Assembly: GCA_022571215.1 (NCBI GenBank)
Contig: JACZYG010000006.1
Span: 1-64,000, forward strand
Reading direction: 5' to 3'
DNA: 64,000 nt
Source of the DNA: Fidelibacterota bacterium
GTDB taxonomy: Bacteria; Fidelibacterota; SORT01
Of this stretch, positions 2,728-20,308 are shown in pieces. The notes under the pieces are model-generated. The model was not told the origin of the DNA, did no database searches, and worked only from the letters and a program-made list of their open reading frames with translations. Each line of letters starts with the position of its first letter. The stretch's first letter is position 1. Position numbers and translations under genes: made by a program.

Positions 2728-3768
2728 TTATTCGTACCAGATCTTTTCCGTGATCATTCGCCTGTCGAGCTCTCTATCAGCAATGTCCTCCCTCACCATA
2801 TCTATGGCTTCACTGCTATAAAATATGTTAGCCGTACCTTTCAGCTCAAGCTGGGTCACAGACGCGCCTATGTGTAACGCGCCGTAAATAGTAGGACTGC
2901 CTGTTGACGCATCGATGATCAATGATTCTCCACCTGAAGCGATAATCAGACCGTACCATGTAGGACTTCCCGTCATAGTGAAAGAGCCGTTGATGGCAAG
3001 AACACCATATCCAACAAGGTTTCCCTTCAACGTTAAATCTCCATTGGAGTAAATGATTTTCGGATTATCTTCGCTGCCCCAGCCATTGCTAAAGGATCCT
3101 CCCTGATAGTCCTCGTCGGCTATTTCCGCATAATATGCTATAAGATCAGACAGGTTAACAAGCGGACTGTCATTTGCGACTTCGACTACCGGTTCACCTT
3201 GAACCCATGTGGAATCGGTGTAAACCGTTTCAAATCGAAGACGGTCAGCTGAATTAGATAGTGTTAATCCGGCTAAATTCGTACCATCCGGATTTTCACC
3301 TGATCCATCCATAAGCTGATCCACACCAACTATCTGTGGAGACCCGTCGAATACAAATGTTGTGAAATCAGATTCGATAGCAATAGAAGCTGTCATCCTT
3401 GGAATAAGAACGCTTTTACTGATAAATTGGACACGCGTCGTGTGTGATTCTTCGTTATATGAACCTGTAACTGATATCTGGAGTGTGTCAAAATCAAGCG
3501 TTTGATCATACCCGAGGGATGTTATGTTTGCGTTGTAAGAGCCTCCAAGAAAATCATCGCTCGAATAATTTTGATTATTCTCCCCTGTTTCGGAGTGAAT
3601 CGACAAAATGTAGTTAGCCGCAATGTTTGTCACATGCCGCGCAAGAACGGTTTCTGTGAATATTGATGAATTCAATGCTGAGGATTCTGAAGTTTTATTG
3701 ATATTTTGGCGAACCATTCCGAATATCACAATAAATCCCAAAACCGCTATTAAAGATGATCTACCCAT
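2728..3768 (-). CDS. PilX-like pilus assembly protein with noncanonical MG-leader (copy 2)
   Basis: 346 residues. It begins M-G-R-S-S-L followed at once by a hydrophobic helix (residues 6-19), as in a type IV pilin, but with no charged leader before the Gly. The middle is beta-rich. The C-terminal third contains G-x-x-V-G-Y-G-V-L-A-I-N-G, P-T-W-Y-G-L-I-I-A-S-G-G and Y-S-S-E-A-I, the pattern of the repetitive beta domain found at the C-terminus of PilX-type proteins. It is a clear tandem paralogue of the upstream gene at 3795-4820: nearly identical residues 1-30 and a shared L-G-G-S-Y motif. The start is set by an AGGAT Shine-Dalgarno about 6 bases upstream. It probably acts as a large minor pilin or initiator; this is inferred from domain order and location. 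Confidence 0.75.
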   Translation of the reverse strand: MGRSSLIAVLGFIVIFGMVRQNINKTSESSALNSSIFTETVLARHVTNIAANYILSIHSETGENNQNYSSDDFLGGSYNANITSLGYDQTLDFDTLQISVTGSYNEESHTTRVQFISKSVLIPRMTASIAIESDFTTFVFDGSPQIVGVDQLMDGSGENPDGTNLAGLTLSNSADRLRFETVYTDSTWVQGEPVVEVANDSPLVNLSDLIAYYAEIADEDYQGGSFSNGWGSEDNPKIIYSNGDLTLKGNLVGYGVLAINGSFTMTGSPTWYGLIIASGGESLIIDASTGSPTIYGALHIGASVTQLELKGTANIFYSSEAIDMVREDIADRELDRRMITEKIWYE

Positions 3769-3794
3769 AAGTTTATCCTATTCTTTTTATAGTT

Positions 3795-4820
3795 TTATTC
3801 ATGCCATATAATTTCTGTAATTATTTTGGTGGAGGCGAAGCCTCCCGTAGATTCTAAGTCCGATTGCACCATATCAAGCGCTTCGCTGCTGTACTGAATT
3901 ACTACAGAATCCGTTATCCTCAGATCGCTTGCAGGCGAGTCAGTGATAATAGCACCGTTTATTTTAGAAGTATTTTCAATCCTAATGTCCTGCGTGCCCG
4001 TGGAATCAGCTTGTACAATAACCAATCCATACCATGTTGGGCTTTCCGCCATCCTCAAATTCCCTCTGATTGCGAGGATGCCGTAACCGACGCTATTTCC
4101 CTTTAAATACATGTCGCCTTCAACATACACGATCACGGGGTCCGCCTCCGTTCCCCAATTGACATCACTAAAGGCTCCGCCTGTTAAAGACATGTCGGCT
4201 ACGGTCTGATAGTAATCGAACAATTCAGTTAAGTTAACCGCCAGTGTTGATGTGTCAACTTCGATTGCCGAACTTCCCTGCACCCATTCCGGGTTAGCCG
4301 CGATCTCCGTAGCGAGTAGTACGCTGTCTGCTGAACTGACGACAGTTATTCCCGGTAAATCAGGCGCGGGTCCCGGTGTGCCGTCAATATTTACGTCAAC
4401 GCCGCTTACAAGGATGTTACCGGAGAAGAAATAGCTGACGTTAGGAGATTTAAATGATCCGGATGAAGTAGTTGAGGGCATTACAGAACTCTGGCTCAGA
4501 ATATCCACTCGACTCGTATAGCTCTCGTCCTCATAAGTGGCTGTAACGGTAAGTTTTGTGGTGTCACCAACTGTTGTGAATATGGCTGTGTAAGATCCGC
4601 CCAAATAGTCAGAATTTGAATATGAAATGTCGTTCCCGGTATTGGAATAAACAGAGATACCATACTCAATTGCGCTATTAGCAACGTTACGAGCAAGTAA
4701 AACATCAGTATAATCCGATGAATTCTCGCTTGAGCTCTCCGAAGTCTTATTGATATTATTCCGAACCATCCCGAAAATCACAATAAATCCGAGGACGGTG
4801 AATAGCATTGCTCTACCCAT
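3795..4820 (-). CDS. PilX-like pilus assembly protein with noncanonical MG-leader (copy 1)
   Basis: 341 residues from the chosen ATG at 4820. An upstream in-frame ATG at 4859 would add 13 residues, but the internal start has an AAGGAT ribosome-binding site and gives the same M-G-R start as its paralogue. Residues 1-20 form M-G-R-A followed by a hydrophobic helix with V-L-G-F-I-V-I-F. The C-terminal domain carries G-Y-G-I-L-A-I-R-G, P-T-W-Y-G-L-V-I-V and Y-S-S-E-A-L-D-M-V, matching the PilX C-terminal beta region. The next gene starts 26 bases after its stop, so the two are probably co-transcribed. The role as a minor pilin of the adjacent system is inferred. Confidence 0.75.
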   Translation of the reverse strand: MGRAMLFTVLGFIVIFGMVRNNINKTSESSSENSSDYTDVLLARNVANSAIEYGISVYSNTGNDISYSNSDYLGGSYTAIFTTVGDTTKLTVTATYEDESYTSRVDILSQSSVMPSTTSSGSFKSPNVSYFFSGNILVSGVDVNIDGTPGPAPDLPGITVVSSADSVLLATEIAANPEWVQGSSAIEVDTSTLAVNLTELFDYYQTVADMSLTGGAFSDVNWGTEADPVIVYVEGDMYLKGNSVGYGILAIRGNLRMAESPTWYGLVIVQADSTGTQDIRIENTSKINGAIITDSPASDLRITDSVVIQYSSEALDMVQSDLESTGGFASTKIITEIIWHE

Positions 4821-4884
4821 ATATTGAAATATCCTTAAGAGTGATATATGATGCCGCAAATTTCATTATGAACCTCATCTCTCT

Positions 4885-4977
4885 TCACCCTTCTATATCA
4901 TAAATTTCTAAAGTTGCCGAGTAGGCTTGACCGGTTTTCACAACGATTTTGAACTGAATGTTCAATTTATAGTTCAT
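4885..4977 (-). CDS. Possible 30-residue leader peptide upstream of the PilX-like operon
   Basis: ATG at 4977 is preceded by AGGAG with an 8-base spacing and the frame runs 30 codons to TGA 4885-4887. The peptide has an alternating basic/hydrophobic N-terminal half and ends in E-I-Y-D-I-E-G. It lies about 65 bases ahead of the PilX-like start at 4820, in the same direction. No homology is recognised and the short length means chance is a real possibility. Confidence 0.2.
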   Translation of the reverse strand: MNYKLNIQFKIVVKTGQAYSATLEIYDIEG

Positions 4978-5314
4978 GACGCATTCTCCTGTTCTTAATG
5001 TTCTTCCGTTAACTTATTACAGGCGCCGGACTGAGGCACCTAAAATGGTTGAACATCACTATATCTCCTTAAAATCGGAACAACCTGAATCGCTCTCCGG
5101 ACTAATAGGCAAAATATGCCACCGGCGACTCAAAATCAAATATAATTAATGTCAAACCGTAAGTTGTGACGTAGAATACATTTAATACGCATTTGTGATT
5201 CGCAATACAATCTTTAATCTAAAGTCACATATATTGGTCTCAAGTAGAGTGTTTCTACAGAGAAAAATAAGAATTAATGAGTTAAATCAAGGGAAGCAAA
5301 GGATTTATTATTCC

Positions 5315-5343
5315 TTGACTTATAAATCAGAAATTCTTATAAT
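5315..5343 (+). promoter_or_regulatory. Strong sigma-70-type promoter of the major pilin-like gene
   Basis: TTGACT (5315-5320), a 17-base spacer, and a perfect TATAAT (5338-5343). Predicted transcript start is near 5350, leaving a leader of about 85 bases before the ATG at 5436. This is one of the best promoter matches in the window and fits a highly expressed pilin subunit. Confidence 0.8.
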
Positions 5344-5435
5344 TAACTAACATGAGATATGGCATGCTACTTGGAATCAAAGGATGATTTTCAAACAGAG
5401 CTAAAAATCTCAACTGTTTATAAAGGAGATTAATA

Positions 5436-5822
5436 ATGGGACAACAGCAATTACTGCTTATCGTACTTGGAACCATCATAGTTGGAGTGGCGGTCGTAGT
5501 GGGAATCAACATGTTCACGACCGGCGCGATCAACGCTGAGAGAGATGCGCTTTTGCAGGATGTTAACAATATCGCATCTAATGCAATCTCGTATTGGCGT
5601 AAACCCGCAGCTTTAGGCGGTGGAGCGAGAACATATGTAGGCGTAACCTTAGCCTTGATGGGCGCCAATGCAACAAACACTAACGGAACTTTTACGATAT
5701 CGACTGCCGGCACGATAACTCAATTCGGACTTACGGCTTTAGGAGCGAGCGAAGGTGTGGAAATCATTGCGACTATTGATCAGAATGGAGTCGTGGGTAC
5801 TCCGACGATAACTATGCCCTAA
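5436..5822 (+). CDS. Small major-pilin-like protein with MGQQQ start
   Basis: 128 residues. M-G-Q-Q-Q is followed directly by a long hydrophobic helix (about residues 6-27), then an amphipathic N-A-E-R-D-A-L-L-Q-D-V stretch and a short, Gly/Thr-rich beta domain without cysteines. This is the shape of a type IV pilin: N-terminal helix plus small globular head. There is no basic leader, and Phe1 and Glu5 of classical pilins are missing. A strong private promoter, an AAAGGAG ribosome-binding site 7 bases before the ATG, and a GC-rich hairpin downstream (5870-5902) suggest much higher expression than pilB behind it. I infer it is the major subunit of the filament built by the neighbouring ATPase, PilC and secretin genes; processing after Gly2 is untested. 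Confidence 0.75.
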   Translation: MGQQQLLLIVLGTIIVGVAVVVGINMFTTGAINAERDALLQDVNNIASNAISYWRKPAALGGGARTYVGVTLALMGANATNTNGTFTISTAGTITQFGLTALGASEGVEIIATIDQNGVVGTPTITMP

Positions 5823-5838
5823 GAGTTGAGTCGCACTG

Positions 5839-5858
5839 TTTTAGGGTAATTCCTAAAA
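5839..5858 (+). repeat. Hairpin just after the pilin stop
   Basis: TTTTAGG (5839-5845) pairs with CCTAAAA (5852-5858) across a 6-base loop. It has no following T-run. Together with the larger hairpin at 5870-5902 it may stabilise the pilin mRNA end or thin out read-through. Confidence 0.35.
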
Positions 5859-5869
5859 TAATTGATTTT

Positions 5870-5902
5870 GCGGGTACTGCCGTACTGAGTACGGCTACCC
5901 GC
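5870..5902 (+). terminator. GC-rich hairpin between pilin and pilB (attenuator or processing site)
   Basis: An outer stem GCGGGTA / TACCCGC encloses an inner stem GCCGTAC-TGA-GTACGGC, making a nearly perfect hairpin 48 bases after the pilin stop. No U-tract follows, so full intrinsic termination is doubtful; partial termination or 3'-end protection of pilin mRNA is more likely. Confidence 0.4.
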
Positions 5903-6056
5903 AATAATTGCATGAAGAGTTTATTGATAAGGTACTATGCTAAAGAAGCAGGATGCCTAAACACAGCATACTCACATGAAGAAAACAGAGCAGACCTTCA
6001 GATTTTCAGCCCCCGGTCGGGCAATTATTATTGCGGATAAAGGAGACAATTAGCAG

Positions 6057-7826
6057 ATGGCTCTACGTATCGGAGACGTGCTTGTCGAGCAGGGAATCAT
6101 AACTAATGAGGTTCTGCAACAAGCCTTAGAAATACAATCTAAGGAACCCCCGGCATCACGTAGAAGAGTAGGTGAAGTGCTGTATGAGGATCTTGGTGTG
6201 GATAGGCATGAAGTCCTGCATTCACTCAGTTCTCTTTATGCCATAAAAGAAATTGAAGTTTCTGTAAAAGATTTACCGGAAGAACAAATAAAATTTATTC
6301 AGGGATTCCTCGAGAACCTTTCGGATGACACGCGTACGGCGATGATCCGCGCGAAAATGATACCTCTTAATTTCGACCGTAAGAACGGTGAAGGTCTTCT
6401 TACTCTCATTGCCGCCGATCCTACAGATCCGAGTCTGCAAAATATTGTAGAGAAATTGAATTATCGCAACTATGAAATTGCATACACAAAGCAGGAATCT
6501 GTTGAAGAATTAATCAATAAAATTCTCTCCGGCATTAACGAATTCCTTGAGATACTTGATGAGATCAATTATGATGATGATACTGAGGTTAAAGAGGAAG
6601 ATGTTGATGAAGCGGCGCTCGATGCCGAAATAAATCAGAGCGCGCTAACGGCGCTGGTTGAGGGAGTTCTTGTTGAAGCTGTTAGACAAGATGTAAGTGA
6701 TATTCATATCATACCTTCTTCTACTACTACTACTGATTTTGTTTTCAGGCAGGACGGAAAACTCGGCTTATGGCACGTTCAAAAAGGTGTTAAACCTGAA
6801 GCTATTGTTGCTGTATTTAAAGATAAAACAAGGAATGTCGATCGGTTTGAAAGGGACATAGCTCAGGACGGTTTTATCCAAAGGAAAGTAGACGATTACT
6901 TGATAAGGTATCGTGTTTCCATCATCCCAATTGTCGGAAAGGAATTCGACAGGAAATTTGAAAGCGTTGTAATCAGAATCCTTGATGACAGAAAAGTAAT
7001 CTCCGATCTCAAGCTGCTTGGGTTGCAGACAAAAGCAATGGAGGATTTTGAAAAATCGATTGCTAAACCTTCCGGTATTATTATCGTAACAGGTCCGACC
7101 GGCAGCGGAAAGAGCACTACGCTGATAGCTGCGCTTTACGCTGTAATAACCCCTGAAGTCTGTGTGTTGACCGTGGAAGATCCTGTTGAATATCTCATTA
7201 AGGGCGCAAGGCAATTGAAGATTAGCGATAAAATGACCTTTGATCTTGCTATGCGGGCGATACTGAGACATGATCCGGATATTGTGCTTGTTGGCGAGAT
7301 AAGAGACAAAAAAACTGCCGAGATAGCAATTAAATTAGCGAACACAGGGCATTTAACTTTCTCAACTCTTCATACGAATGACGCGCCGAGCGCCGTATCA
7401 AGACTTTATAAAATGGGTGTAGAACCCTTCCTGATCGCTTACTCGGTCAATATAATAATGGCTCAGCGGCTCGTAAGAAGATTATGCAAAGTATGCAAAA
7501 CGCCTACGGAGCCAAAAGACGATGATTTTGCGCTGAACATAGGATTTACTAAGGAAGAACTCGAAAAAATAACTGTGTACAAACCGGTAGGATGCAGCGA
7601 ATGCAGGAACGGATATAAAGGAAGAGCGGCAATAATGGAAGCTCTTTATTTTACGCCGAGGATCCGGGAGATAATAATAGAATCCGGGACGGAAATAAAC
7701 GAAAAAGCGATTAGTGAAGAAGCGGTAAAGAATGGCATGTTGACTCTTCGCGCATCCGGTAGAGCTCGCATAGAGGAGGGTCTTACCTCTGTGGAAGAAA
7801 TAGCCGCAATAACAGTGGAGGATTAA
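6057..7826 (+). CDS. pilB: Type IV pilus / type II secretion assembly ATPase (PilB/GspE family)
   Basis: 589 residues. Residues 1-130 form the N-terminal GspE/MshEN-type domain (starts R-I-G-D-V-L-V-E-Q-G-I-I). The ATPase domain has a Walker A G-P-T-G-S-G-K-S-T at 346-354, an Asp box, a Walker B-like D-P-D-I-V-L-V-G-E-I-R-D, and the His box S-T-L-H-T-N-D-A. A zinc-binding pair C-x2-C ... C-x2-C follows, as in extension ATPases of this family. It powers filament polymerisation at the inner membrane with PilC. AAAGGAG precedes the ATG. An acidic run (around residues 178-192) sits between the N-terminal and ATPase domains. Stop to next start is 9 bases, so it is co-transcribed with the two pseudopilin genes. 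Whether the machine is a pilus or a secretion pseudopilus cannot be settled from this gene alone. Confidence 0.93.
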   Translation: MALRIGDVLVEQGIITNEVLQQALEIQSKEPPASRRRVGEVLYEDLGVDRHEVLHSLSSLYAIKEIEVSVKDLPEEQIKFIQGFLENLSDDTRTAMIRAKMIPLNFDRKNGEGLLTLIAADPTDPSLQNIVEKLNYRNYEIAYTKQESVEELINKILSGINEFLEILDEINYDDDTEVKEEDVDEAALDAEINQSALTALVEGVLVEAVRQDVSDIHIIPSSTTTTDFVFRQDGKLGLWHVQKGVKPEAIVAVFKDKTRNVDRFERDIAQDGFIQRKVDDYLIRYRVSIIPIVGKEFDRKFESVVIRILDDRKVISDLKLLGLQTKAMEDFEKSIAKPSGIIIVTGPTGSGKSTTLIAALYAVITPEVCVLTVEDPVEYLIKGARQLKISDKMTFDLAMRAILRHDPDIVLVGEIRDKKTAEIAIKLANTGHLTFSTLHTNDAPSAVSRLYKMGVEPFLIAYSVNIIMAQRLVRRLCKVCKTPTEPKDDDFALNIGFTKEELEKITVYKPVGCSECRNGYKGRAAIMEALYFTPRIREIIIESGTEINEKAISEEAVKNGMLTLRASGRARIEEGLTSVEEIAAITVED

Positions 7827-7835
7827 GAGAGGTTT

Positions 7836-8333
7836 ATGGGTCGAGCAGAGCTATTACTTGTTCTTGGCGCACTCGTGATTTTCAGCAGGTTCTCGCTGAT
7901 TGTAAATAATACTTTACTGGATAATAGCACGCGAGTTCTCGAGAGCGAGTTTGAGATAACCGGAATATCAATTCTTCAGGAAACGATAAGCGAAGTTGGA
8001 TTGGAGGCATTTGATGAAGCTTCGGTCGGAGCAATCCCTGCCGGCGTACCGGGGAGCTTTACCGCAGCCGGAACTCTTGGTCCTGAAGCCGGCGAAACAG
8101 ATTCGAGTATGTACGATGATATTGACGACTATAACGGGCTTACCAAAACAGGTACGACAATTGCAGGAATGAGCTACACCATTGCCATAGAAGTCGGGTA
8201 TGTTTCGATAGCTGATCTTGTTACATTCTCATCAACACGTTCAACACTGAAACGAATGAATTTGACGCTGACAAGTGAGTATTTGTCAAATGTTCTGAAA
8301 TTAAGTTATGTTTATTCATACATAAGGGAATAA
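7836..8333 (+). CDS. Minor pilin-like protein with MGRAE start
   Basis: 165 residues. M-G-R-A-E-L-L-L-V-L-G-A-L-V-I-F leads straight into a hydrophobic helix; Glu is present at residue 5 (position 3 of the mature chain if cut after Gly2). The rest is a small acidic head with a Gly/Ala/Pro-rich middle. The start has AGAGG just upstream and lies 9 bases after pilB; the following pseudopilin begins 3 bases downstream. It shares its N-terminal pattern with the major pilin and the PilX-like pair, so I read it as a minor pilin of the same machine. There is no match to a named subfamily that I can defend. Confidence 0.65.
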   Translation: MGRAELLLVLGALVIFSRFSLIVNNTLLDNSTRVLESEFEITGISILQETISEVGLEAFDEASVGAIPAGVPGSFTAAGTLGPEAGETDSSMYDDIDDYNGLTKTGTTIAGMSYTIAIEVGYVSIADLVTFSSTRSTLKRMNLTLTSEYLSNVLKLSYVYSYIRE

Positions 8334-8336
8334 AAG

Positions 8337-8885
8337 ATGCCAGATATAGAATTAGCGGGTTCATTTATTATCGGAGGTATGATTCTGCTTTCTATATTTA
8401 GCTTGAACGCAGATATAATGGAGACTGCAACAATGAATAACCTTGGCACCAACGCCCAAAAAAATGTCACAGCCATTGTGAGTATTTTAGATTATGATTT
8501 TAGAAAGATGGGGTATTTAGTCCCATCGGGAACCAATGCGGTCACAGCCTTGACGGATACTACTATTGCATTTTTGGGAGATATGGACAATAACGGCAGC
8601 GTAGACAGCGTAAGTTATTATCTCGGACCCAAATCCGAACCGAGTGGAACTGAAAATCCCAACGATAGATACTTATACAGAAAGGTCAACGGTACAGCAA
8701 ATGACGTCGCACTCGGAATAACAAGTTGGACTTTAACATATTACGACATTTCCGGGAGTGTGACTACAGCGCCGGCAAATGTACGCTCCATAAGGATCAG
8801 TTTCACCGTTGAGACTACAATACCTTTCGACACCACTTACGGTTCAGCTCGATGGGAAGGAAGATTTACACCAAAAAACTTGTAG
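8337..8885 (+). CDS. PilW/GspJ-like minor pseudopilin
   Basis: 182 residues. It starts M-P-D-I-E-L-A-G-S-F-I-I-G-G, with a hydrophobic helix at about 7-25 and Glu5, but again no classical prepilin leader. After the helix comes a D-Y-D-F-R-K-M-G-Y motif and later R-S-I-R-I-S-F-T-V, typical of PilW/GspJ-type minor pilins. A D-x-D-x-N-G-x-V segment near residues 83-89 could bind calcium. It is the third gene of the pilB operon, 3 bases after the previous stop. Role as a tip or initiation subunit is inferred from family behaviour. Confidence 0.65.
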   Translation: MPDIELAGSFIIGGMILLSIFSLNADIMETATMNNLGTNAQKNVTAIVSILDYDFRKMGYLVPSGTNAVTALTDTTIAFLGDMDNNGSVDSVSYYLGPKSEPSGTENPNDRYLYRKVNGTANDVALGITSWTLTYYDISGSVTTAPANVRSIRISFTVETTIPFDTTYGSARWEGRFTPKNL

Positions 8886-8895
8886 GGGAAATATA

Positions 8896-9438
8896 TTGTC
8901 AGACAACAACTCAGGAAACGGAAGAGCAAATTCAGAATCGGGTAATAAGGGTGACCAATCTATAAGCGTCTGGTCACAGCACACCGGTTCATTAATATAC
9001 TTTCAAAAACCACCGCTGCTATTAGCGCATTTTCCGCATGATTTAGCGGAAAAATTTTTGGCGATGGGATTCGACGAATACTATGATTTTCATGAGGATA
9101 TAATGAAAGAGGGACAGCTCGGGAAGGATATGTTTCTTCTTTGTGAAGGGGAGGTTGCGATTTACAGTCAAGGGATAAAAATGGCCTCCCTTGAAAAGGG
9201 TGATGTATTCGGCGAACTGATTCTCTTCCGGCACCACTATAGGATTGCGTCTGTAAAGGTAGAGAAATCGGCTCGTTTGTTACGTTATTCGAGAGAGATA
9301 CTGAAGGATTTTTTTGCAAGACATGGGCATAAAATCTTCGATTTTTATATAATGAATCTTATGGAGATATTAAGAAGAAAGCTGATTGCAACAAATAAAA
9401 GGGTGGTGGAGTTAGAACGTCAGCTGATTAAAAATTAA
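8896..9438 (+). CDS. Cyclic-nucleotide-binding domain protein in the pilus cluster
   Basis: 180 residues from a TTG at 8896, chosen because AGGGGA lies just upstream and the previous gene ends at 8885; an in-frame ATG at 8809 would sit inside that gene. After a ~35-residue polar, Ser/Asn-rich N-terminus comes one cNMP-binding fold: M-F-L-L-C-E-G-E-V, then a phosphate-cassette-like G-D-V-F-G-E-L-I-L-F-x-x-x-x-R-I-A-S-V. The C-terminus is a basic helix with no DNA-binding helix-turn-helix, so it is not a CRP-type regulator. It sits at the end of the pilB operon, convergent with pilC (stops 9 bases apart). It may couple a nucleotide signal to pilus assembly; the ligand is unknown. Confidence 0.75.
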   Translation: MSDNNSGNGRANSESGNKGDQSISVWSQHTGSLIYFQKPPLLLAHFPHDLAEKFLAMGFDEYYDFHEDIMKEGQLGKDMFLLCEGEVAIYSQGIKMASLEKGDVFGELILFRHHYRIASVKVEKSARLLRYSREILKDFFARHGHKIFDFYIMNLMEILRRKLIATNKRVVELERQLIKN

Positions 9439-9447
9439 TGCGCTCTT

Positions 9448-10767
9448 TTACATTACAGAAGTTTCGGAAGAGACGATAGTCAATCCTACCATAACTATCA
9501 TAATAATCATGGTCACCATTAAATCAATAGTAGTTACAACCTTTTCCATTCTGTAACTGGTTTCAGTTTCGTAATAGTTAGCCAACTGCAAGGCATTGGA
9601 TCTCAAGGCGCCCGATTCTGCTCCTGAACGAAATCGTGATAATGCTGTTTTCGTAAATACGCCGGTTTCTTCCATAGCCTCAACTATGCCCTTGCCTTCA
9701 CCGAGCATAAGCGGAATACCGACTTCTTTCATTTGTTTTTCCATATATTTGTTCCTGCATGCTTCGGATGCGACTCTAATGACCTCAATATTTTCACCGG
9801 AACCGCTGTACAATGAATAAAAGACTCTCGCAAATATTTCAATGCTCATCTTGTGGACGAGGTCGCCAATCACAGGTATTCTTATTATGTACTTATCTTT
9901 GAATAAAGCCCCATCAGGAGTTCGAATCCACAGCACAAATGAGATAACCGGTAGTAATATGCTTGCAAGAATAATTAACCAATTCGCCTGGAGAAAATTG
10001 CTGAATTCCAATGTGGTTGCCGTCATGGGAGGAAGCGTTTTTCCCATTTTAAGAAAGACTCCGGCTGTTTCGGGAAAGATTACCATCACGTAGTATGCTA
10101 CAACCAGTCCTATAACAAAAAGAGTAATGAAAGGAGTTACCAGGGCTTTCTTCAAAGAACGTTTAAACTCTTCGTCCCTTTGCATAAATTTAGCGGTACT
10201 TTCGTAAACTTCTGCCATATTACCGCTTGTTGAAGCAACCCCCAACATAAAGGCGGGGAATTTTCCAAATACATCTTCGTGTTTTCCGAAGACCTCGGCC
10301 CCCTCCTTACCTTCCTTAAGGTCTTTACTTATCTGTTTAATGACTTCTCGTAATCTTTTATTGGTCGTATCTTCCGCTAAGAGGTCTAATATTTCGTCGT
10401 AAGCCAAATTCTCTTTAAGTAAATCAGCGCATAATCGGATCCAAGACGCTATTTCAGCGGTGGGAACTCCTCCTTTTAAAACAAAAAATTTCTTTTGGAC
10501 TTTTAGTACCTTAAAACCGAGTTTCTCAAGAGCAGCCTGAAGTTCCTCTTTACTGAAGGCTTTCTGTTCCCCGGTCTGAATTTCCTGAGTCCCCCGCCGA
10601 ACACGATATATAAAATTAACTTTTTTTTGTATATTTTGGACTCTCAACCGTCTTTTACGCGCCAGGCTGTCGATGGTCTTTTTAGCATCCTTTTTATTTT
10701 CCGCCTCGATAGTACCTTGGATGAGCTTGCCTTTGATATTTTTAGCTGTATATCGAAATAATTCCAT
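9448..10767 (-). CDS. pilC: Type IV pilus / T2SS inner-membrane platform protein (PilC/GspF family)
   Basis: 439 residues with two T2SSF domains (about 125-225 and 300-410) and three membrane segments (about 211-231, 266-284, 412-432), the standard GspF topology. The first domain shows F-G-K-F-P-A-F-M-L-G-V-A-S, the second A-L-S-R-F-R-S-G-A-E-S-G-A. The N-terminal ~115 residues are basic and cytoplasmic. It is the membrane partner of PilB and PilT. It is reversed relative to all other machine genes around it and has its own promoter (10881-10909), so its expression is separate from pilB and from the pilT-pilQ operon. Confidence 0.92.
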   Translation of the reverse strand: MELFRYTAKNIKGKLIQGTIEAENKKDAKKTIDSLARKRRLRVQNIQKKVNFIYRVRRGTQEIQTGEQKAFSKEELQAALEKLGFKVLKVQKKFFVLKGGVPTAEIASWIRLCADLLKENLAYDEILDLLAEDTTNKRLREVIKQISKDLKEGKEGAEVFGKHEDVFGKFPAFMLGVASTSGNMAEVYESTAKFMQRDEEFKRSLKKALVTPFITLFVIGLVVAYYVMVIFPETAGVFLKMGKTLPPMTATTLEFSNFLQANWLIILASILLPVISFVLWIRTPDGALFKDKYIIRIPVIGDLVHKMSIEIFARVFYSLYSGSGENIEVIRVASEACRNKYMEKQMKEVGIPLMLGEGKGIVEAMEETGVFTKTALSRFRSGAESGALRSNALQLANYYETETSYRMEKVVTTIDLMVTMIIMIVMVGLTIVSSETSVM

Positions 10768-11104: not shown

Positions 11105-12340
11105 ATGGATTTAGCTCAAGTAGAAGCGGCGAAGGAAATCTTAAGACCTCTAATTTCTCAAATTCCTAATACACTATTGGGTCTTGAAAGGCAGATGCAT
11201 ATAGGAAAAATTGTGTCAGAATTGGAAGTAGAGAAAAAAATGGCATTAAAAAATGTCATTGACGGCATCATTTTAAGAATGCCGGAAATTGATGCGTCTG
11301 ATGTTGATATGGGGTCCGGGGGGTGCAGAGGGAAGATTTGGTATAGAGTACAGGGAGCAAAAAATCCTGATCCTGAGGCTGGCGAATTTACTGAAGCGGA
11401 AACGGATTTTTTTCTTTTGAATATAATGATGGAGAAACAGCAGGAATATCTTTTCAAAAATAGAAATGTTGATTTTTCTTATGTTGTAGGCAACGGAGAA
11501 AATGAACATCGTTTAAGGGGCGATATGTATTTTGATCTTGGGCATATCGCTTTAAACATGAGATTGATTGGCTCCGAGATCCGTCCATTTGCGGAATTTA
11601 ATTTCCATCCTGAAATTGCCAAAGCTTTAAGCCTGAAATTTGTCAAACAAGGCTTAGTTCTCGTAACCGGTATAACGGGTTCCGGTAAGAGTTCCACTCT
11701 TGATTCAATCATTGATGCAAACAACCGTAGCGTTGACGCTCATATAGTGATACTCGGAAGCCCGATTGAACAGGTACATACGTCCGCACGGTGCATAGTA
11801 AGGCACAGAGAGATCGGGGCAGACGTAATGTCATTTAAAGAAGGAGCAATTCAGGCATTGAGGCAAGATCCCGATATAATCGTAATCGGTGAAATGAGAG
11901 ACCCTGAGACGATTATAACCGGTCTCGAGATCACTGACAGCGGTCATAAAGTGTTTTCTACTCTGCATACCAGTTCAGCTGTAGAAAGTATTGACAGGAT
12001 TATCGGGGAAGTGCCAAGTGAGGTGCAAGGAAGAATTAGAGAGCGTTTAGCAGAAGTTCTGACAGTAGTCATCTCACAAAAACTTGTAAGAACTTTGGAT
12101 GGGAAAAGAGCTTTAGCAAAAGAAGTTCTAATGGTGACTCCCTCAATAAGGGCTGCAATAAAAAATAATAATCTTGATGAAATATATCAGATGCTCCAGC
12201 AGGGTCAGAAATTAGGAATGATAACTATGGAGCAGGATCTGAAACGTTTACTTGAGGAAAAGAAAATATCTTACGAAGAAGCGCTGAACAATGCGAATCT
12301 TAAAAAACGATTTAAGGAAATAGTGCAGTACTCTGCCTGA
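11105..12340 (+). CDS. pilT: PilT/PilU-like pilus ATPase
   Basis: 411 residues. Walker A G-I-T-G-S-G-K-S-S begins at 189; the Walker B region is R-Q-D-P-D-I-I-V-I-G-E-M-R-D; His box S-T-L-H-T-S-S-A. It lacks the N-terminal GspE domain and the C-x2-C zinc pair, as in retraction ATPases. The N-terminal ~110 residues differ from classical PilT, which usually totals about 350, so a PilT-related paralogue is possible. It opens the pilT-pilMN-pilOP-pilQ operon; the next gene begins 9 bases after its stop. If active, it argues for a dynamic (retractile) pilus and against a pure secretion system. Confidence 0.85.
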   Translation: MDLAQVEAAKEILRPLISQIPNTLLGLERQMHIGKIVSELEVEKKMALKNVIDGIILRMPEIDASDVDMGSGGCRGKIWYRVQGAKNPDPEAGEFTEAETDFFLLNIMMEKQQEYLFKNRNVDFSYVVGNGENEHRLRGDMYFDLGHIALNMRLIGSEIRPFAEFNFHPEIAKALSLKFVKQGLVLVTGITGSGKSSTLDSIIDANNRSVDAHIVILGSPIEQVHTSARCIVRHREIGADVMSFKEGAIQALRQDPDIIVIGEMRDPETIITGLEITDSGHKVFSTLHTSSAVESIDRIIGEVPSEVQGRIRERLAEVLTVVISQKLVRTLDGKRALAKEVLMVTPSIRAAIKNNNLDEIYQMLQQGQKLGMITMEQDLKRLLEEKKISYEEALNNANLKKRFKEIVQYSA

Positions 12341-12349
12341 TACTTTTTA

Positions 12350-14764
12350 ATGGCCGCTAAACAAATTTTCAGCATCTATCTTGATGTCAAACGGGAGCTA
12401 AAGACCGTCCTCGCCTCTGTTTCCGGCGGAGTTGTCAAAGTTGAAAGCTTCGACCATGCGATGATGGTTACCGCATTGAAACAACAGGTCAACGAATTTG
12501 AGGATTTACCCGAGGATGAACCGCAAATAGAAGATGCGGCTGATGTTTTCGGCGTAGCCGACGAAAACATCGAAGTTTCAGATGAATCACTTTTTGGTGA
12601 TACCGAAACTGATTCAGATGAAATTGAAACGATAGATGATGAAGATTCGGATGAAGGCGAACTGACAAATGAAGATATTCTTCTATCGCTCATACAACGT
12701 GTGGATGCCCAAAAGTTCAATTATGCGATAAACATTCCAGCTACACTACTATCGGTATTTCATCTAAGAGAAAATTATGAAGAGTTTAAACCTAAGGCAC
12801 GGGAAGCAGAAATTAGGGCGACAGTGAGAGAGAGGCTTGAGAAGGATATACCGAATGACCATATCGCCTATATATCCGCCGTTGGAGAAGGGGCTATATC
12901 ATTTTCTTACGATGGAAATATACCGTTACTATCCGCAATAGATGAAATTACGCCTCATCTTGAAGAAAGACCCAAGTTTAGCATCTCAGTTCCGGACGAA
13001 ATATCCATATTAAATCTTATCCGCTTGAACGAGCAACCGGGAGAAGATGATTACATCGTTGTTATAGATATGGAAGAGACTACGACAAGGCTGATTATCA
13101 CAAAGGGAGGAGAAATTGTTCATATTCCGCCTCCTATACAATCGGGTACAGAGACTCCTGAAGTGATGGCTACTATTTATAGTAAGATTCTCTATGAACA
13201 GGATATGGGAAATATGCCTGATTTTAGTAAAATAATCCTGACAGGTGAATCAAGAGATGTTAATGCGCAGGAATTTTTAAAGGAAAAGTTCGCTGATGTC
13301 AGTGTTGAATATCTTGCTATCCGCACAGATAAAATCGAGTTGCCCGATGAATTGGTAGAAGATCTGCCGGAATATGCAGTTCCACTTGGAATGGCGATCC
13401 AGGCTTTAATTCCGAAGAATGAGCATGTATTAAAATTGAATATGCTGCCGGATTACGTAACCAGCAGACAACGGACGTTGAAATTAAACTGGCATGGAAT
13501 GGTAGCATTGGCATTGATATTTTCCTTTCCCTTTATGTTCAATTGGCAGGATAAAAAACAGTCAGCTCTGAAAATAGAAAATTCACAACGCTTGGTTAAT
13601 TTAACAACATCTATTGCGGATCTCGAGTGGGCGGAACCATTATTGGACAGTATTGCCACCAACATGGGAATTGCTATGGATAATATGATCCTAATTGATT
13701 CTTTGGCAAAGGGAACGATGAGATTTTCGGTTACTCTTGATAAGATAAACAGGGCAATGAAAGACGTCAATAATATCTGGCTTACACAATTATCCTCGAG
13801 AAAGAATTCCATTGAAATTTCCGGGTACAGTCTTTTTAGAAACAGAATTCATAGGTTGGCTGCAGAATTCACAGGAGCGAATATTCAGAGCGTTACACCA
13901 GCTTTGATAAGGAATAAATCGGTATATCGCTTTGCAATGGTTCTGGATAAAGTTGTAGCTGACGATTCACTTTTCAATCCTGTTGTTATTATCCCTGAAC
14001 CTGAGCCTGAACCTGAAATTATCCCTGTAGTTGTTATTGAAGAGACGTTTGAGGAAGAAATAATTGCCGAAATACCCGTTGAAACCCTTCTGCTTGATAC
14101 AACGGTATTTGATACATTCTTTGCGGATACCATTGAGTATCCGCCATATGAAGTAATGGATATTCCTTATGGGATGATAATGGCGGACGCTTTTTACGGC
14201 GAATTGGTAACAGTGGAAATACCTCCTGACTTTGAAGAGGAATTGGTTTCAATGTTCACCGAGGAGGACCTATATGACACTGTGATAGTTGCGGATGAAC
14301 TATCGATGACCGAACCGGACACTGTGATTGCGAAAGTGTCTTCTTACTTTGATAATTCATCGTTGATTCAGGTTGATAAATCTAATTTACCTCTTCTGTA
14401 CAGTGAAGCTTACGGCCATTATATCAATTCTGATTACCAATCCGCTCTTGATATTTTTCTGGCGATAGCCGATGCAAGATTAGATGATTCACTGACCGAC
14501 AACGCTCAGTATTGGGTTGGGGAATGTCTTTTAGCGCTCGACATGCCTGAACAGGCAATAGCGGCGCTCGTAAATTTATTCGAATATTTCCCGGCATCGA
14601 ATAAAATTGAAGCGGCGCAGTTACTGATTGGAATGGCGTATGCGGAAGTAGGAAGGAAGGATGAGGCAGAAATGGTTATCAATTTACTTCTTAAATCAAA
14701 TCCCGACGGTGAATTTGCAGCCAAAGCAAAATTCTTATTAAAAACAATTCGTAATCAGGAATAA
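12350..14764 (+). CDS. PilM-PilN fusion with C-terminal TPR region
   Basis: 804 residues, far longer than PilM (~350) or PilN (~190). Residues 1-370 resemble the actin-like PilM fold (Y-I-V-V-I-D-M-E-E-T-T-T-R-L nucleotide-loop-like motif, ending N-M-L-P-D-Y, a PilN-type start). Within this domain lies a very acidic linker (about 52-108, mostly D/E/S/T). A membrane helix at about 381-399 is followed by a coiled, PilN-like periplasmic region with the 'W-L-T-Q-L-S ... I-S-G-Y-S' pattern. After a Pro/Glu-rich linker, residues ~681-804 form tetratricopeptide repeats like those of Tol-Pal/YbgF-type proteins. It links the cytoplasmic ring to the periplasmic alignment complex. Neighbours are pilT (9 bases) and pilOP (4 bases). 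Confidence 0.8.
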   Translation: MAAKQIFSIYLDVKRELKTVLASVSGGVVKVESFDHAMMVTALKQQVNEFEDLPEDEPQIEDAADVFGVADENIEVSDESLFGDTETDSDEIETIDDEDSDEGELTNEDILLSLIQRVDAQKFNYAINIPATLLSVFHLRENYEEFKPKAREAEIRATVRERLEKDIPNDHIAYISAVGEGAISFSYDGNIPLLSAIDEITPHLEERPKFSISVPDEISILNLIRLNEQPGEDDYIVVIDMEETTTRLIITKGGEIVHIPPPIQSGTETPEVMATIYSKILYEQDMGNMPDFSKIILTGESRDVNAQEFLKEKFADVSVEYLAIRTDKIELPDELVEDLPEYAVPLGMAIQALIPKNEHVLKLNMLPDYVTSRQRTLKLNWHGMVALALIFSFPFMFNWQDKKQSALKIENSQRLVNLTTSIADLEWAEPLLDSIATNMGIAMDNMILIDSLAKGTMRFSVTLDKINRAMKDVNNIWLTQLSSRKNSIEISGYSLFRNRIHRLAAEFTGANIQSVTPALIRNKSVYRFAMVLDKVVADDSLFNPVVIIPEPEPEPEIIPVVVIEETFEEEIIAEIPVETLLLDTTVFDTFFADTIEYPPYEVMDIPYGMIMADAFYGELVTVEIPPDFEEELVSMFTEEDLYDTVIVADELSMTEPDTVIAKVSSYFDNSSLIQVDKSNLPLLYSEAYGHYINSDYQSALDIFLAIADARLDDSLTDNAQYWVGECLLALDMPEQAIAALVNLFEYFPASNKIEAAQLLIGMAYAEVGRKDEAEMVINLLLKSNPDGEFAAKAKFLLKTIRNQE

Positions 14765-14768
14765 TTTG

Positions 14769-15638
14769 ATGTCTTATGCCATTCGAAATACATTGGTACT
14801 TATTATAGTTCTGCTGGTATTATTAGGATCCGGATGGGGTTGGTTAAAATTCCAATATGGAAATGCTCTATCACTCCTTGAAACCGAACTTAAAATAAAA
14901 GAGGCACGCCTTACTCAGCTAGAAACGGTTTTTGCCGACTATGATTATATGCAGGATATGTTAACTTCGACGCTACGGAGATGGGAATATTATCCGAAAA
15001 TCCTGCTCCGGGAAAGCTCCATACACGAAACATTCAGGTATCTGGAATCCATAGGGAGTCAAAAAGCAGCTTTTGAATATGAATTTAAACTTTCAAACAT
15101 AGATAATGAGGGTGATATTATTTACGCTGATTATCAATTAGACGGACAAGGTCGGTACAATAATGTCTTTAGATTTATACAATACATGGAAAAAAGTAGG
15201 CCAATGTATAAGATAGAATCGCTCGAACTCAGCCAAATAACGGGAAGTCGAACCTCACGCGGAGAAATCAATGTAATATTAAAATTTAAGGGTATATTCG
15301 CGTCAAAGGATAAAATTGGATTAACGAAAGAAGGAGACCAGTTCAAATTAGCGAACGTACGATATAGTTCCGGATATGACCCTTTTAAACCATTTATATT
15401 GAATATTCTTCCTCCAAATACCGGTAATTTGCTTGAAATCAATAGAGCAAAGGTGATAGCCATTATGAAAGGAGTAGTGTATATTCAAGGTAGATCAGGG
15501 GATATGAGAACATTGAGAGTTGGCGATAGGGTATATCTCGGAATCTTGGAAAAAATTGATTTGAGGAAGAGGGAAGTGGTATTCACTATGAATAGAGGAG
15601 GTATTTTCGATAAAGTAACTATGCGGCTCGAAAAATAA
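14769..15638 (+). CDS. PilO-PilP-type alignment protein
   Basis: 289 residues from ATG 14769, which has AGGA 8 bases upstream; a TTG three bases earlier is also in frame. A membrane helix (about 8-28) is followed by a coiled coil (K-I-K-E-A-R-L-T-Q-L-E-T) and a PilO-like ferredoxin fold (Y-N-N-V-F-R-F-I-Q-Y-M-E-K). From about residue 195 a D-P-F-x-P motif begins a PilP/GspC-like homology region ending with V-Y-I-Q-G-R ... V-G-D-R-V-Y-L, which in other bacteria contacts the secretin. It appears to join PilO and PilP in one chain. It is followed directly by the secretin gene (22-base gap). Confidence 0.75.
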   Translation: MSYAIRNTLVLIIVLLVLLGSGWGWLKFQYGNALSLLETELKIKEARLTQLETVFADYDYMQDMLTSTLRRWEYYPKILLRESSIHETFRYLESIGSQKAAFEYEFKLSNIDNEGDIIYADYQLDGQGRYNNVFRFIQYMEKSRPMYKIESLELSQITGSRTSRGEINVILKFKGIFASKDKIGLTKEGDQFKLANVRYSSGYDPFKPFILNILPPNTGNLLEINRAKVIAIMKGVVYIQGRSGDMRTLRVGDRVYLGILEKIDLRKREVVFTMNRGGIFDKVTMRLEK

Positions 15639-15660: not shown

Positions 15661-16911
15661 ATGATATTGGCAAGAAAATATAAGAGGTTTTTAAAACGGT
15701 TAAAAATCCTAACAAGCTTTATCGTATCTGCCGAATTATGTCTCTTAATGACTGTGGGCGATATAAATGCTCAACGGGGGGGAGTGCCGTCCCAATTACG
15801 GGGTGGAGAAGGCGCTAATGTAGCCTTTCCTCCCACTACTACATTTTCTCAAGCGATACAAATATTAAGCCAAATATCGAGAGATGTAGAAGGTAAAGTA
15901 ATAATTGATCCCACCAATCAACAGGGGCCAATAAACGTTTCCGTTCCCTCACTTAATTGGAAAAGAGCTCTTGAGATGATTCTGAGGGCAAACGGATTGG
16001 AATTCGTCGAAAGAGCAACTTACTATGAGATACGCCCCTCCGGTTCTGGTGTTGCCCAGCCTTCGGGACCTGCGTTGCCACTCGAAAACGAACTGACGTT
16101 AAATTCTCGACAAGTAGAAATTTCCGCAATATTTTTTCAAGGTGACAGAGGAAGTATAGCAGAAGCGGGAATTGACTGGTCAATGTTTTCAAGGGGAAAC
16201 GTCAACTTTGATGTCAGCTCGATTGCGGCTACAAATGTAACTCAAAATTTTCTGAGAGCATCGGTTAATTATACAGCGGAAGCGGGCGCCGTAACCATAA
16301 CTACGCTCGGAATACTGAGAGCATTTGAAGCTCTCAATATCGGAACCATAATATCTAAACCTTCTATCATAGTCTTGGATGGCGCAGAAGGGATGATACA
16401 GGTTGGACAGAGCTTCTCAATAAAACAAAAAGATTTTGCCGGAAATACAACTGATGAATTTTTTGAAGTCGGAACAATATTGAAAGTAACGCCACAAATA
16501 ATTAGAGACAGGGATGTGACCTTTATTCATATTGATTTAGCTGTCGAAAAGAGTACTGCTTTTCCTGATGCCGTTAGCACGCGTATAGATAAACAGTTGG
16601 CAAAGACCCAAATTTTATTGCTTGACGGTGAACAAACTGTGATAGCGGGACTCTTTACAGATGAAAGTCAATCAGTTCGAAAAGGCATACCTATATTGAA
16701 AGACCTCCCGTGGTGGTTCTTTGGACTACGGTTTTTGACGGGATTTTCCTCGGTTGACAAGTCTGAAGGTGAATTGATCATTATTATCAGAGTAGATTTG
16801 GTACCATCCCTTACAGAGAGAATTGAGAGGAGAAGGGCGGAGCTTGATGAGATCATCGAAAAAGAACGCGTCAAATTCCAGGAAGACTTAAAGAAGCTTC
16901 CGTCAAATTAA
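15661..16911 (+). CDS. pilQ: Short type II/IV secretin (PilQ/GspD family)
   Basis: 416 residues, compared with 600-750 for most PilQ/GspD. A signal peptide occupies about 1-37. One N-domain (about 60-135; K-V-I-I-D-P-T ... V-S-V-P-S-L-N-W-K-R-A-L) precedes a complete secretin barrel domain (about 145-390) with S-K-P-S-I-I-V-L-D-G, the gate-region V-T-P-Q-I-I and the C-terminal T-V-I-A-G-L ... G-I-P-I-L-K-D-L-P. A charged C-terminal helix follows. It forms the outer-membrane channel. The reduced number of N-domains suggests the fused PilO-PilP protein spans more of the periplasm. GAGA-type Shine-Dalgarno precedes the ATG. Confidence 0.88.
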   Translation: MILARKYKRFLKRLKILTSFIVSAELCLLMTVGDINAQRGGVPSQLRGGEGANVAFPPTTTFSQAIQILSQISRDVEGKVIIDPTNQQGPINVSVPSLNWKRALEMILRANGLEFVERATYYEIRPSGSGVAQPSGPALPLENELTLNSRQVEISAIFFQGDRGSIAEAGIDWSMFSRGNVNFDVSSIAATNVTQNFLRASVNYTAEAGAVTITTLGILRAFEALNIGTIISKPSIIVLDGAEGMIQVGQSFSIKQKDFAGNTTDEFFEVGTILKVTPQIIRDRDVTFIHIDLAVEKSTAFPDAVSTRIDKQLAKTQILLLDGEQTVIAGLFTDESQSVRKGIPILKDLPWWFFGLRFLTGFSSVDKSEGELIIIIRVDLVPSLTERIERRRAELDEIIEKERVKFQEDLKKLPSN

Positions 16912-17718: not shown

Positions 17719-19416
17719 TTGAAAGATTTTCTTAAAATAAAGTTTATCAGCATGTTCCGATTTGGAAGCGGATGGAATGCCGGATCAATATTTATGGAAA
17801 TTGCCACTACTCTTGTATTTGCCGCGTTTGCCTATGGAGCTTATGCCGGCATCAAAATAACTATAACTTTTATGATAGAAAGCGTTCATCTTCCGGTGAT
17901 ATTTTTGCACAGTCTGCTTGCAACAGGATTATTTGCTTTATTCGTGATGACGGCTGTCGGAAATTCAGTAACCGCTTTTTCAGCCTTCTTCAGATCGGAA
18001 GAATTGGAATATCTCTTCACCCTTCCGTTGGATGCCAAGAATATATTCATGTTTAAATTTGCCGAAAATTTTTTCAGAAGTTCAACTCCTATGTTCCTTC
18101 TTGGCGGTTCGGCGCTAATGGCATATGGAACATACTTTAATTTGAGCATTATGGAATATCTGCTGATAATCTTCGGGATAGCGCTTCCTTTCGTTTTTAT
18201 GGCGGCAGGATTAGGAACGCTGATTCTCTATATCATAGTACGTATCTCTACATTTTTCTCGCCAAAACTGATAATTACTGGGGCAATACTGCTTACGCTG
18301 ATTGGATCAGGCGCCTATTTTCGATCAATTAATCCGGTGGAACAAGTTCAGGAGATCATTAAATATTATCCGAATTTCGAGGATCATCCAGCTTTTGCCC
18401 AAGCGGGAATAGGGGAGGTTGCATTCGTTCCGAGCACCTGGGTCGCAAGCGCTTTATTCAGCATTGTAGATGGCGACACCGCCTCAGCATTGAACAATAT
18501 TAGCGTGATAATTTTGGCTTGCATAGGCTTGGTAACGATCCTATACATTGTGCCGGGCAGCGGATATTATAAACTTTGGCTTGACATTCAGGGAAAAGAA
18601 TGGCTCATAAGTAAACCAAATAAATCCACTCAAACCAATTTTTTATTAAATCTTAAATTACCATTCAGCAAAAAAGTCGAAGCGTTTTTAAAGCGTGATC
18701 TGATGATGTTTTTCAGAGATCCGAGTCAGTGGGGGCACATGATACTTTTTATGGTACTCTTACTTATATTTATAGCAAATATGAGTGGATTGACTCTTTA
18801 TATATCCGATCCGGTCAGGATGACGCTGCTATTTATTGCGAACTATATATTCGGCGGGTTTTTTCTCGTTTCGTTAGCTGTTAGATTCGTATTTCCACTA
18901 ATGAGTCAGGAGGGACAGGCATTCTGGATGATAAAATCAGCGCCGCTTTCAATGAGGTTTATACTAAGCTATAAAGTCATCATTTCATGCGTGATACTGC
19001 TCTCGATCGGAATACCGCTATTGGGAATTACTTCCCGTGCTTTGAGCGCAAGCAATAATCTTCTGATGATAACTCTCACGTTCACGATATTAGCCACTCT
19101 GATTACGACCCTGCTCTCTCTTGCCACAGGCGCTTGGTTTGCTAATTTGAAAGAGAAGAGCGCCATTAGAGCTGCATCTTCAAGAGGGGCAACAGTTGCA
19201 TTTTTAGTCACAATGTTTTATTTAGTGGGAGGAAGTTCCTTATTATCGGTGATTTCGTTAGCTGTTTTCAAATTTACGATAGATAATGAACCATACGAAC
19301 CAAATAGCATATTATTTATATTGGGAGTGTTCGGGATAATAAGTATAATTATTGCGGTAGTGAGTGTTATTGTCAGCAGGAAAGCCTTAGAGCGGGAGGA
19401 AGTCTATGCAAGATAG
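17719..19416 (+). CDS. ABC-2-type exporter membrane protein
   Basis: 565 residues, TTG start. At least ten hydrophobic segments are visible in two halves, separated by a cytoplasmic region around residues 285-345. It is the predicted permease partner of the preceding ATPase; the fused two-half layout matches large ABC exporters annotated only as putative. It overlaps the following lipoprotein by 11 bases, so the three genes form one unit. The substrate cannot be read from sequence. Confidence 0.8.
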   Translation: MKDFLKIKFISMFRFGSGWNAGSIFMEIATTLVFAAFAYGAYAGIKITITFMIESVHLPVIFLHSLLATGLFALFVMTAVGNSVTAFSAFFRSEELEYLFTLPLDAKNIFMFKFAENFFRSSTPMFLLGGSALMAYGTYFNLSIMEYLLIIFGIALPFVFMAAGLGTLILYIIVRISTFFSPKLIITGAILLTLIGSGAYFRSINPVEQVQEIIKYYPNFEDHPAFAQAGIGEVAFVPSTWVASALFSIVDGDTASALNNISVIILACIGLVTILYIVPGSGYYKLWLDIQGKEWLISKPNKSTQTNFLLNLKLPFSKKVEAFLKRDLMMFFRDPSQWGHMILFMVLLLIFIANMSGLTLYISDPVRMTLLFIANYIFGGFFLVSLAVRFVFPLMSQEGQAFWMIKSAPLSMRFILSYKVIISCVILLSIGIPLLGITSRALSASNNLLMITLTFTILATLITTLLSLATGAWFANLKEKSAIRAASSRGATVAFLVTMFYLVGGSSLLSVISLAVFKFTIDNEPYEPNSILFILGVFGIISIIIAVVSVIVSRKALEREEVYAR

Positions 19417-20308
19417 GAAAATAACCAACAGAAATCTTATACATTTTTTAACTCTGACGACAGTTGTCTTATTGCTTCTGAGCGGATGTAGTTCTACAAC
19501 TCTGTTGCTCGAGAAAACTACGGTCAGATTCGATAAGGAGCAATACGAAGTTTCAGACAAGTATATTTGTACCATCGAAGGTCAACTGATGAATTCAAAG
19601 GGATCATATGTGGCTGAAAAGAGTATCGCCGCCGCATCGCGTGATTTTAAAAATTTAATGTCGACCGTCAGTAAAACAGGGGTCGACGGCAAATTTTCGA
19701 TTCAGCTCTATTGGATAGAGCAACCTTTTATTTATGCCGATGTTTTCCCTAATCCTGCTCAAAGCAGTTTGACGAGCAGCGGTTTCTCGTACTTAAAGAA
19801 CTCAAGAACTATAACACTTGATGTGCCGGTTTACATCACGGATGAACAAGAACAGCTGTTGAGTACTCCCATTACAATGTACAGTCTCTCATTTGCATTG
19901 AGGAGGATGGCAGAAGATGTGGTTAACAAAAGGCTTATCAGATACTCCTTTTCCGCCCAGGATTATGAAACCGGATTGACTATTAATGGAGCAGAAATAA
20001 CACTTCACGCTAAAGGAGTGGTATTTTCGCCCGATTCACTCTTAGGCAATTATATTATCAGCGATACCTTGCGAGCGCTGGCTGTCCGACACACTAAAGA
20101 GTATGTCGTTCATGAACAAACAAAAATTCTTACACCGGATAAAGACGCTAAGTTCAATGTGCTGACCTTTAGCGAGTATACGGTGACATTTGAGCATCCG
20201 CAATATTACACGGCGGTAGAAACTCTTTATGTTGAAAGACCGGTTGAAAAGATATTTCGGGTAACACAATTGGGCGCGCTAAAGAAGTATGATTTTATAG
20301 ATCAATAA
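19406..20308 (+). CDS. Lipoprotein of unknown function, partner of the ABC exporter
   Basis: 300 residues. Lipobox L-L-S-G-C with Cys28 after a hydrophobic stretch. A GGAGGAA ribosome-binding site precedes the ATG inside the end of the permease gene. The mature protein is beta-rich and carries two segments resembling carboxypeptidase-regulatory-like folds (G-V-D-G-K-F-S-I and T-G-L-T-I-N-G-A-E-I-T-L). No catalytic motif is seen. Translational coupling suggests that it works with the exporter, perhaps as an envelope-anchored accessory. Confidence 0.7.
   Translation: MQDRKITNRNLIHFLTLTTVVLLLLSGCSSTTLLLEKTTVRFDKEQYEVSDKYICTIEGQLMNSKGSYVAEKSIAAASRDFKNLMSTVSKTGVDGKFSIQLYWIEQPFIYADVFPNPAQSSLTSSGFSYLKNSRTITLDVPVYITDEQEQLLSTPITMYSLSFALRRMAEDVVNKRLIRYSFSAQDYETGLTINGAEITLHAKGVVFSPDSLLGNYIISDTLRALAVRHTKEYVVHEQTKILTPDKDAKFNVLTFSEYTVTFEHPQYYTAVETLYVERPVEKIFRVTQLGALKKYDFIDQ

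Follow-up and report, generated by a model that had tools for sequence, protein, structure and literature searches.

We found a type IV pilus variant that is real and widespread and, within the reach of our literature searches, apparently undescribed. As predicted from its genes, it is very probably type IVa-like, with major and minor pilins that are synthesised free of a class III leader and with no need for the prepilin peptidase PilD. The cluster lies in the window, the whole 64,000-nucleotide stretch of DNA that was analysed. Five pilin-like open reading frames were confirmed there at the positions and with the N-termini listed below; the unusual N-termini to which a preliminary description had drawn attention are therefore real.

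The leaderless cluster and its machine

The features of the cluster are as follows.

2728–3768 (read 3768–2728), minus strand: putative PilX-like minor pilin, leaderless, MGRSSLIAVLGFIVIFG (MGRSSLIAVLG...); in-frame stop a few codons upstream
3795–4820 (read 4820–3795), minus strand: second putative PilX-like minor pilin, leaderless, MGRAMLFTVLGFIVIFG (MGRAMLFTVLG...); homologues start MGR
5423–5428, plus strand: ribosome-binding site AAGGAG ahead of the major pilin ATG, read from the sequence
5436–5822, plus strand: candidate major type IV pilin, leaderless, MGQQQLLLIVLGTIIVG...; at least 469 relatives, AlphaFold2 model, profile matches
6057–7826, plus strand: PilB extension ATPase; TIGR02538 (type_IV_pilB) E=1.3e-123, below its curated cut-off; PDB PilB E=2.3e-90
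7836–8333, plus strand: putative PilV/GspI-like minor pilin, leaderless, MGRAELLLVLGALVIFS (MGRAELLLVLG...); position and outline
8337–8885, plus strand: predicted PilW/GspJ-like minor pilin, leaderless, MPDIELAGSFIIGGM (MPDIELAGSF...); AlphaFold2 model and Foldseek
8896–9438, plus strand: cyclic-nucleotide-binding domain protein, start codon inferred; PF00027 E=2.9e-12
9448–10767, minus strand: PilC platform protein, leaderless type; PF00482 E=3.7e-31
11105–12340, plus strand: PilT retraction ATPase; TIGR01420 E=3.4e-94; PDB PilT E=1.4e-61
12350–14764, plus strand: PilM/PilN-like protein with C-terminal TPR repeats; weak PilN match E=0.021, TPR matches, conserved operon position
14766–15638, plus strand: PilO-like inner-membrane protein; position and conservation
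15661–16911, plus strand: PilQ-type secretin; PF00263 E=5.9e-25; TIGR02515 (PilQ) E=1.1e-23
19406–20308, plus strand: lipoprotein-like protein, possible accessory part; 36% identity to L211:7272-8183

The PilB/PilT-type ATPases and the PilC/GspF platform of type IV filaments are encoded here, and the subunits do sit amid a real pilus machine, as the preliminary description held. PilT and the PilQ-type secretin are clear, while PilM, PilN and PilO were assigned by position and weak matches; Pfam- and TIGR-type family searches returned no match for the PilO-like protein.

The start codons leave no room for a leader

Reading the sequence directly, we found an in-frame stop within ~5 codons upstream of the Met in four of the five window subunit genes; for 7836–8333 this is the stop codon of PilB itself, four codons before the Met. 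The sole window subunit gene that can be extended is 3795–4820, in which a TTG 13 codons upstream (MRHHISLLRIFQYMG...) is a theoretical alternative start. In relatives of the minus-strand proteins a stop immediately upstream closes the region of this extension: homologues of the 2728–3768 protein read YMGRASL directly after a stop, and those of 3795–4820 in L088, L093 and L099 start MGR inside a pil operon. Among 152 related genes, the gap between stop and Met is at most 5 in-frame residues in 99 and at most 12 in 133. A Shine-Dalgarno (SD)-like motif stands ahead of the ATG, suitably spaced from it, in 78 of 107 major-pilin genes, compared with 10.5% at random positions, and the seemingly basic residues upstream in several relatives (KRR, KEV) resemble an in-frame translation of the SD sequence.

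These stops and SD motifs rule out a longer leader from an upstream start, the case that the preliminary description had named against itself; no leader can be encoded. A class III signal peptide (N_methyl, PF07963), with its terminal Gly/Ala ahead of the helix, is missing from the window subunits, as the upstream stops leave no room for one, and a Pfam search of the five gave neither N_methyl nor any other family match.

Subunit families

Among 11 homologues that are just ~57–78% identical overall, residues 1–27 of the major pilin (MGQQQLLLIVLG) hardly vary, an N-terminal conservation far beyond chance. A profile of 77 major-pilin relatives retrieved solved pilins first, with geopilin at E=1.7e-4 followed by weaker matches to PilA5, PilE and GspG; the match is modest and mainly covers the N-terminal helix. 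For relatives, Pfam and NCBIfam gave no more than weak GspG, GspH and ComP echoes. The AlphaFold2 model of the major pilin (pLDDT 94) predicts a helix at residues 2–55 and a four-stranded sheet, and Foldseek found no match to it in the PDB.

For 8337–8885, the AlphaFold2 model (pLDDT 87.5) has as its three best PDB folds GspJ/XcpW entries (probability 1.00, TM ~0.5, E=0.003–0.008), and on this ground the protein is a predicted PilW/GspJ-type minor pilin. The preliminary description had set this protein apart for its M-P-D-I-E start; by its predicted fold it belongs to the set. The 7836–8333 family is probably of PilV/GspI type, as its position and outline suggest, and the outline of the two minus-strand proteins points to the PilX type. 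The models, with the GspJ-like fold of the minor subunit, thus predict the long N-terminal hydrophobic helix and beta head of a pilin.

Glu5 had been described as absent or shifted, and this is not a plain loss. With Met as residue 1, Gln or Glu occupies position 5 in 17 of 20 PilV-like subunits and in 107 of 107 major pilins, a set collected with the pattern MGQQQLLL, which inflates this and the other major-pilin figures. Many PilW-like members have an acidic residue or Gln at 5 or 6. This Gln/Glu near the N-terminus may take over the role of Glu5. Residue 2 is small in 107/107 major and in 16/20, 16/19 and 6/6 minor subunits, compared with 17/37 other window genes, counts that are suggestive rather than proof in that family members are related. 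Several minor subunits start M-S, M-T, M-N or M-P and have no Gly2. Methionine is not normally removed before Asn at position 2, and the few minor pilins with Asn2 would keep it. In the profile register, query residue i corresponds to mature pilin residue i-3, which places the canonical +1 at residue 4, not 3; Gly2 is therefore unlikely to be the canonical -1 Gly.

Distribution and operon conservation

A scan of 84,980 species genomes with the MGQQQLLL pattern found at least 469 stretches that encode a major-pilin relative. Of the loci, 79 were kept, and these come mostly from Neomarinimicrobiota, KSB1, Calditrichota, Ignavibacteria, Kryptonia and Balneolota. Four loci labelled Desulfobacteraceae, Deltaproteobacteria and Patescibacteria (L077, L094, L095, L109) also carry the pilin and are probably mis-binned contigs. 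Most loci with enough flank contain one to three MGQQQ genes, PilC, PilB, minor pilins, PilT, PilM/N, PilO and the secretin; the leaderless PilV-, PilW/GspJ- and PilX-like subunits usually share the operon with the major pilin, and in many loci the PilV-like gene follows PilB. A gene similar to 2728–3768 adjoins the pilus cluster in L211. The search for the N-terminal profile and its linkage to pilB and pilC in FCB genomes, proposed in the preliminary description, thus reveals a system that spans several FCB phyla with a conserved operon, and the relatives sit with pilus genes rather than apart from them.

In a PilC tree, the operon PilCs form one clade (56/56) that is split, with support 1.0, from the 19 PilC/GspF proteins of conventional type in the sampled genomes. 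Spread of the system on plasmids was considered and yielded no plasmid match.

Prepilin peptidase follows the classical prepilins

Fifty genomes with an MG pilin, which we chose from the MGQQQLLL pattern search and most of which are drafts, were searched for the prepilin peptidase (Pfam A24), canonical prepilins (N_methyl) and PilC. PilC was found in 47, PilD in 16 and N_methyl prepilins in 19; in 34 of the 50, neither Pfam A24 nor a profile from an alignment of FCB PilDs detected a prepilin peptidase. A peptidase missed by one model was considered and rejected: the FCB profile gave the same 16 at strong E-values, and other matches were marginal (E above 0.02). Most sampled hosts, then, have no recognisable PilD; two cultured species, Aliifodinibius salipaludis and Fodinibius halophilus, are PilD-negative. 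The phylum of the window likewise contains MG-pilin genomes that lack PilD at 90–96% completeness (G017, G025, G057). Fifteen genomes have both PilD and N_methyl prepilins, 1 has PilD only, 4 have N_methyl only and 30 have neither (Fisher p=2.5e-8). PilD is thus present in 15/19 genomes with classical N-methyl prepilins compared with 1/31 without them, and the four prepilin-bearing genomes in which it was not detected mean that its detection is imperfect. Because PilD co-occurs with N_methyl prepilins and not with MG pilins, it is the partner of the classical system and not of the leaderless one.

The window's own genome has one PilD, which the preliminary description had asked to be located and which lies beside a conventional PilB/GspE (G000:C33, L001). 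At another site it encodes eight canonical prepilins with ordinary leaders, for example MNRDSKGFTLIELVTV (G000:C12:70500-90000, L212), adjoined by two PilT-type ATPases and a secretin. Since the same genome holds these ordinary leaders, the leaderless form is not an effect of assembly or annotation. PilD as a member of the leaderless operon was rejected: in G064 PilD and PilC share a contig but stand ~20 kb apart with unrelated genes between them, and PilD adjoins a response-regulator gene there, just as it does in the window's genome.

These data bear on the reading in which Met-Gly is a minimal class III leader that the prepilin peptidase cuts after Gly2, with Gln or Arg at +1. A Gly does precede Gln or Arg in the major and several minor subunits, and with one PilD in the window's genome such processing would be possible there. 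We consider this reading improbable, because the same N-terminus occurs in the 34 genomes without detectable PilD, the peptidase tracks classical prepilins instead, and both the minor subunits lacking Gly2 and the register of the profile disagree with it. Between the two options of the preliminary description, a cut after Gly2 or no processing, the cut is thereby rejected as a general requirement. Its phrase that the whole leader is Met-Gly therefore misleads, since no leader exists.

It is very unlikely that the genes are decayed or encode inner-membrane proteins outside the fibre while the machine uses other, classical pilins. The separate set of eight canonical prepilins in the window's genome would suit this, as would the fact that the evidence for the system is genomic. 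However, 27 genomes have the leaderless-type PilC and no detected PilD, N_methyl prepilin or second GspF, so that a leaderless machine occurs there with classical prepilins undetected; N-terminal conservation across phyla indicates strong selection; and PilV-, PilW/GspJ- and PilX-like minor subunits are present. Cleavage of a leader by an unrecognised non-A24 peptidase, for which the lack of A24 leaves room, is equally unlikely, in that the upstream stops leave just Met and a few residues before the helix and there is nothing to remove.

A proposed route to the mature N-terminus

We favour pilins made without a leader, in which translation would start at, or one to two residues from, the mature N-terminus. 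Since a leader is missing and the peptidase often is too, it must be translation that fixes the N-terminus, and PilD would be dispensable as there is no leader to cut. The N-terminal helix presumably enters the inner membrane in N-in orientation. Deformylation and methionine aminopeptidase would probably be the sole N-terminal processing; Met removal is plausible because residue 2 is nearly always small, and usually Gly. PilB and PilC would then polymerise the subunits, PilT would retract the fibre, and the fibre would leave via the secretin. It is likely that a distinct branch of type IV filaments, present in several FCB phyla, dispensed with the prepilin peptidase as well as the class III signal peptide, and that its N-termini are defined instead by the start codon and methionine aminopeptidase.

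Relation to known systems

The machine and the subunit architecture provisionally place this predicted pilus in the type IV filament superfamily, to whose other hallmarks, the class III leader and the peptidase, it does not conform. It resembles the type IVa pilus (PilA, PilB, PilC, PilT, PilMNO, PilQ) in its homologous PilB, PilC, PilT and secretin, its PilM/N/O-like genes and its pilins with a predicted long N-terminal helix and beta-sheet head. Unlike that pilus, all its subunits lack the class III leader, its major pilin lacks the canonical Phe1 and full Glu5 motif, and the peptidase is missing from many hosts. The predicted GspJ/XcpW-like fold of 8337–8885 recalls the type II secretion pseudopilins (GspI/GspJ, XcpW). 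However, type II secretion is marked by GspE/GspF with canonical GspG–K and no PilT, whereas here the subunits are leaderless and non-canonical, PilC is separate from conventional PilC/GspF, and PilT and the PilQ-type secretin point to a pilus. MSHA pili likewise have loci without a prepilin peptidase gene, always in genomes with another system's peptidase to borrow (Denise et al. 2019, PMC6668835), whereas none was detected in 34 of the 50 genomes here.

Reviews describe the leader and the prepilin peptidase as universal, core and ancestral in type IV filaments (PMC10191384, PMC4471445), with no peptidase detected in Nanoarchaeota (PMC4471445). The 2013 genome paper of Melioribacter roseus reported pilT, pilQ, pilB and pilC, and not pilA and pilD (PMC3534657). 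Full-text literature searches, whose scope excludes preprints and most subscription papers, on leaderless pilins, missing prepilin peptidase and MGQQQLLL returned no account of this system or of leaderless type IV pilins, in line with the earlier suggestion of a candidate undescribed system. The leaderless family supplies a candidate for the 'missing' pilA of FCB genomes annotated with pilBCTQ only and gives meaning to the absent pilD; pilin finders built on the class III motif overlook this large family. If the proposed route is true, subunits can be extracted from the membrane and assembled without any inherent need for cleavage and N-methylation, and these pilins are natural material for testing what the leader is for.

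Accessory and orphan genes

In Neomarinimicrobiota and Balneolota loci the gene for the cyclic-nucleotide-binding protein keeps its place between PilB and PilT, and its product is probably a regulator. An MshE-like c-di-GMP motif at the N-terminus of PilB scores just under its cut-off; together the two suggest possible nucleotide control of the pilus. In another genome (L211) the homologue of the lipoprotein-like gene immediately follows the secretin. Orphan pilin-like paralogues occur outside the cluster (L213:3180-3566, L215:4295-4690, L216:4040-4465, L046:10515-11021), some with part of the head region (YWRKP..GGG) but with another short N-terminus (MSAKK, MTNFK, MNQNK). The protein encoded at 107–2593 of the window is large and combines five CarboxypepD_reg repeats with Ig-like domains; it may be a surface adhesin, and Balneola loci have similar proteins upstream of their major pilin.
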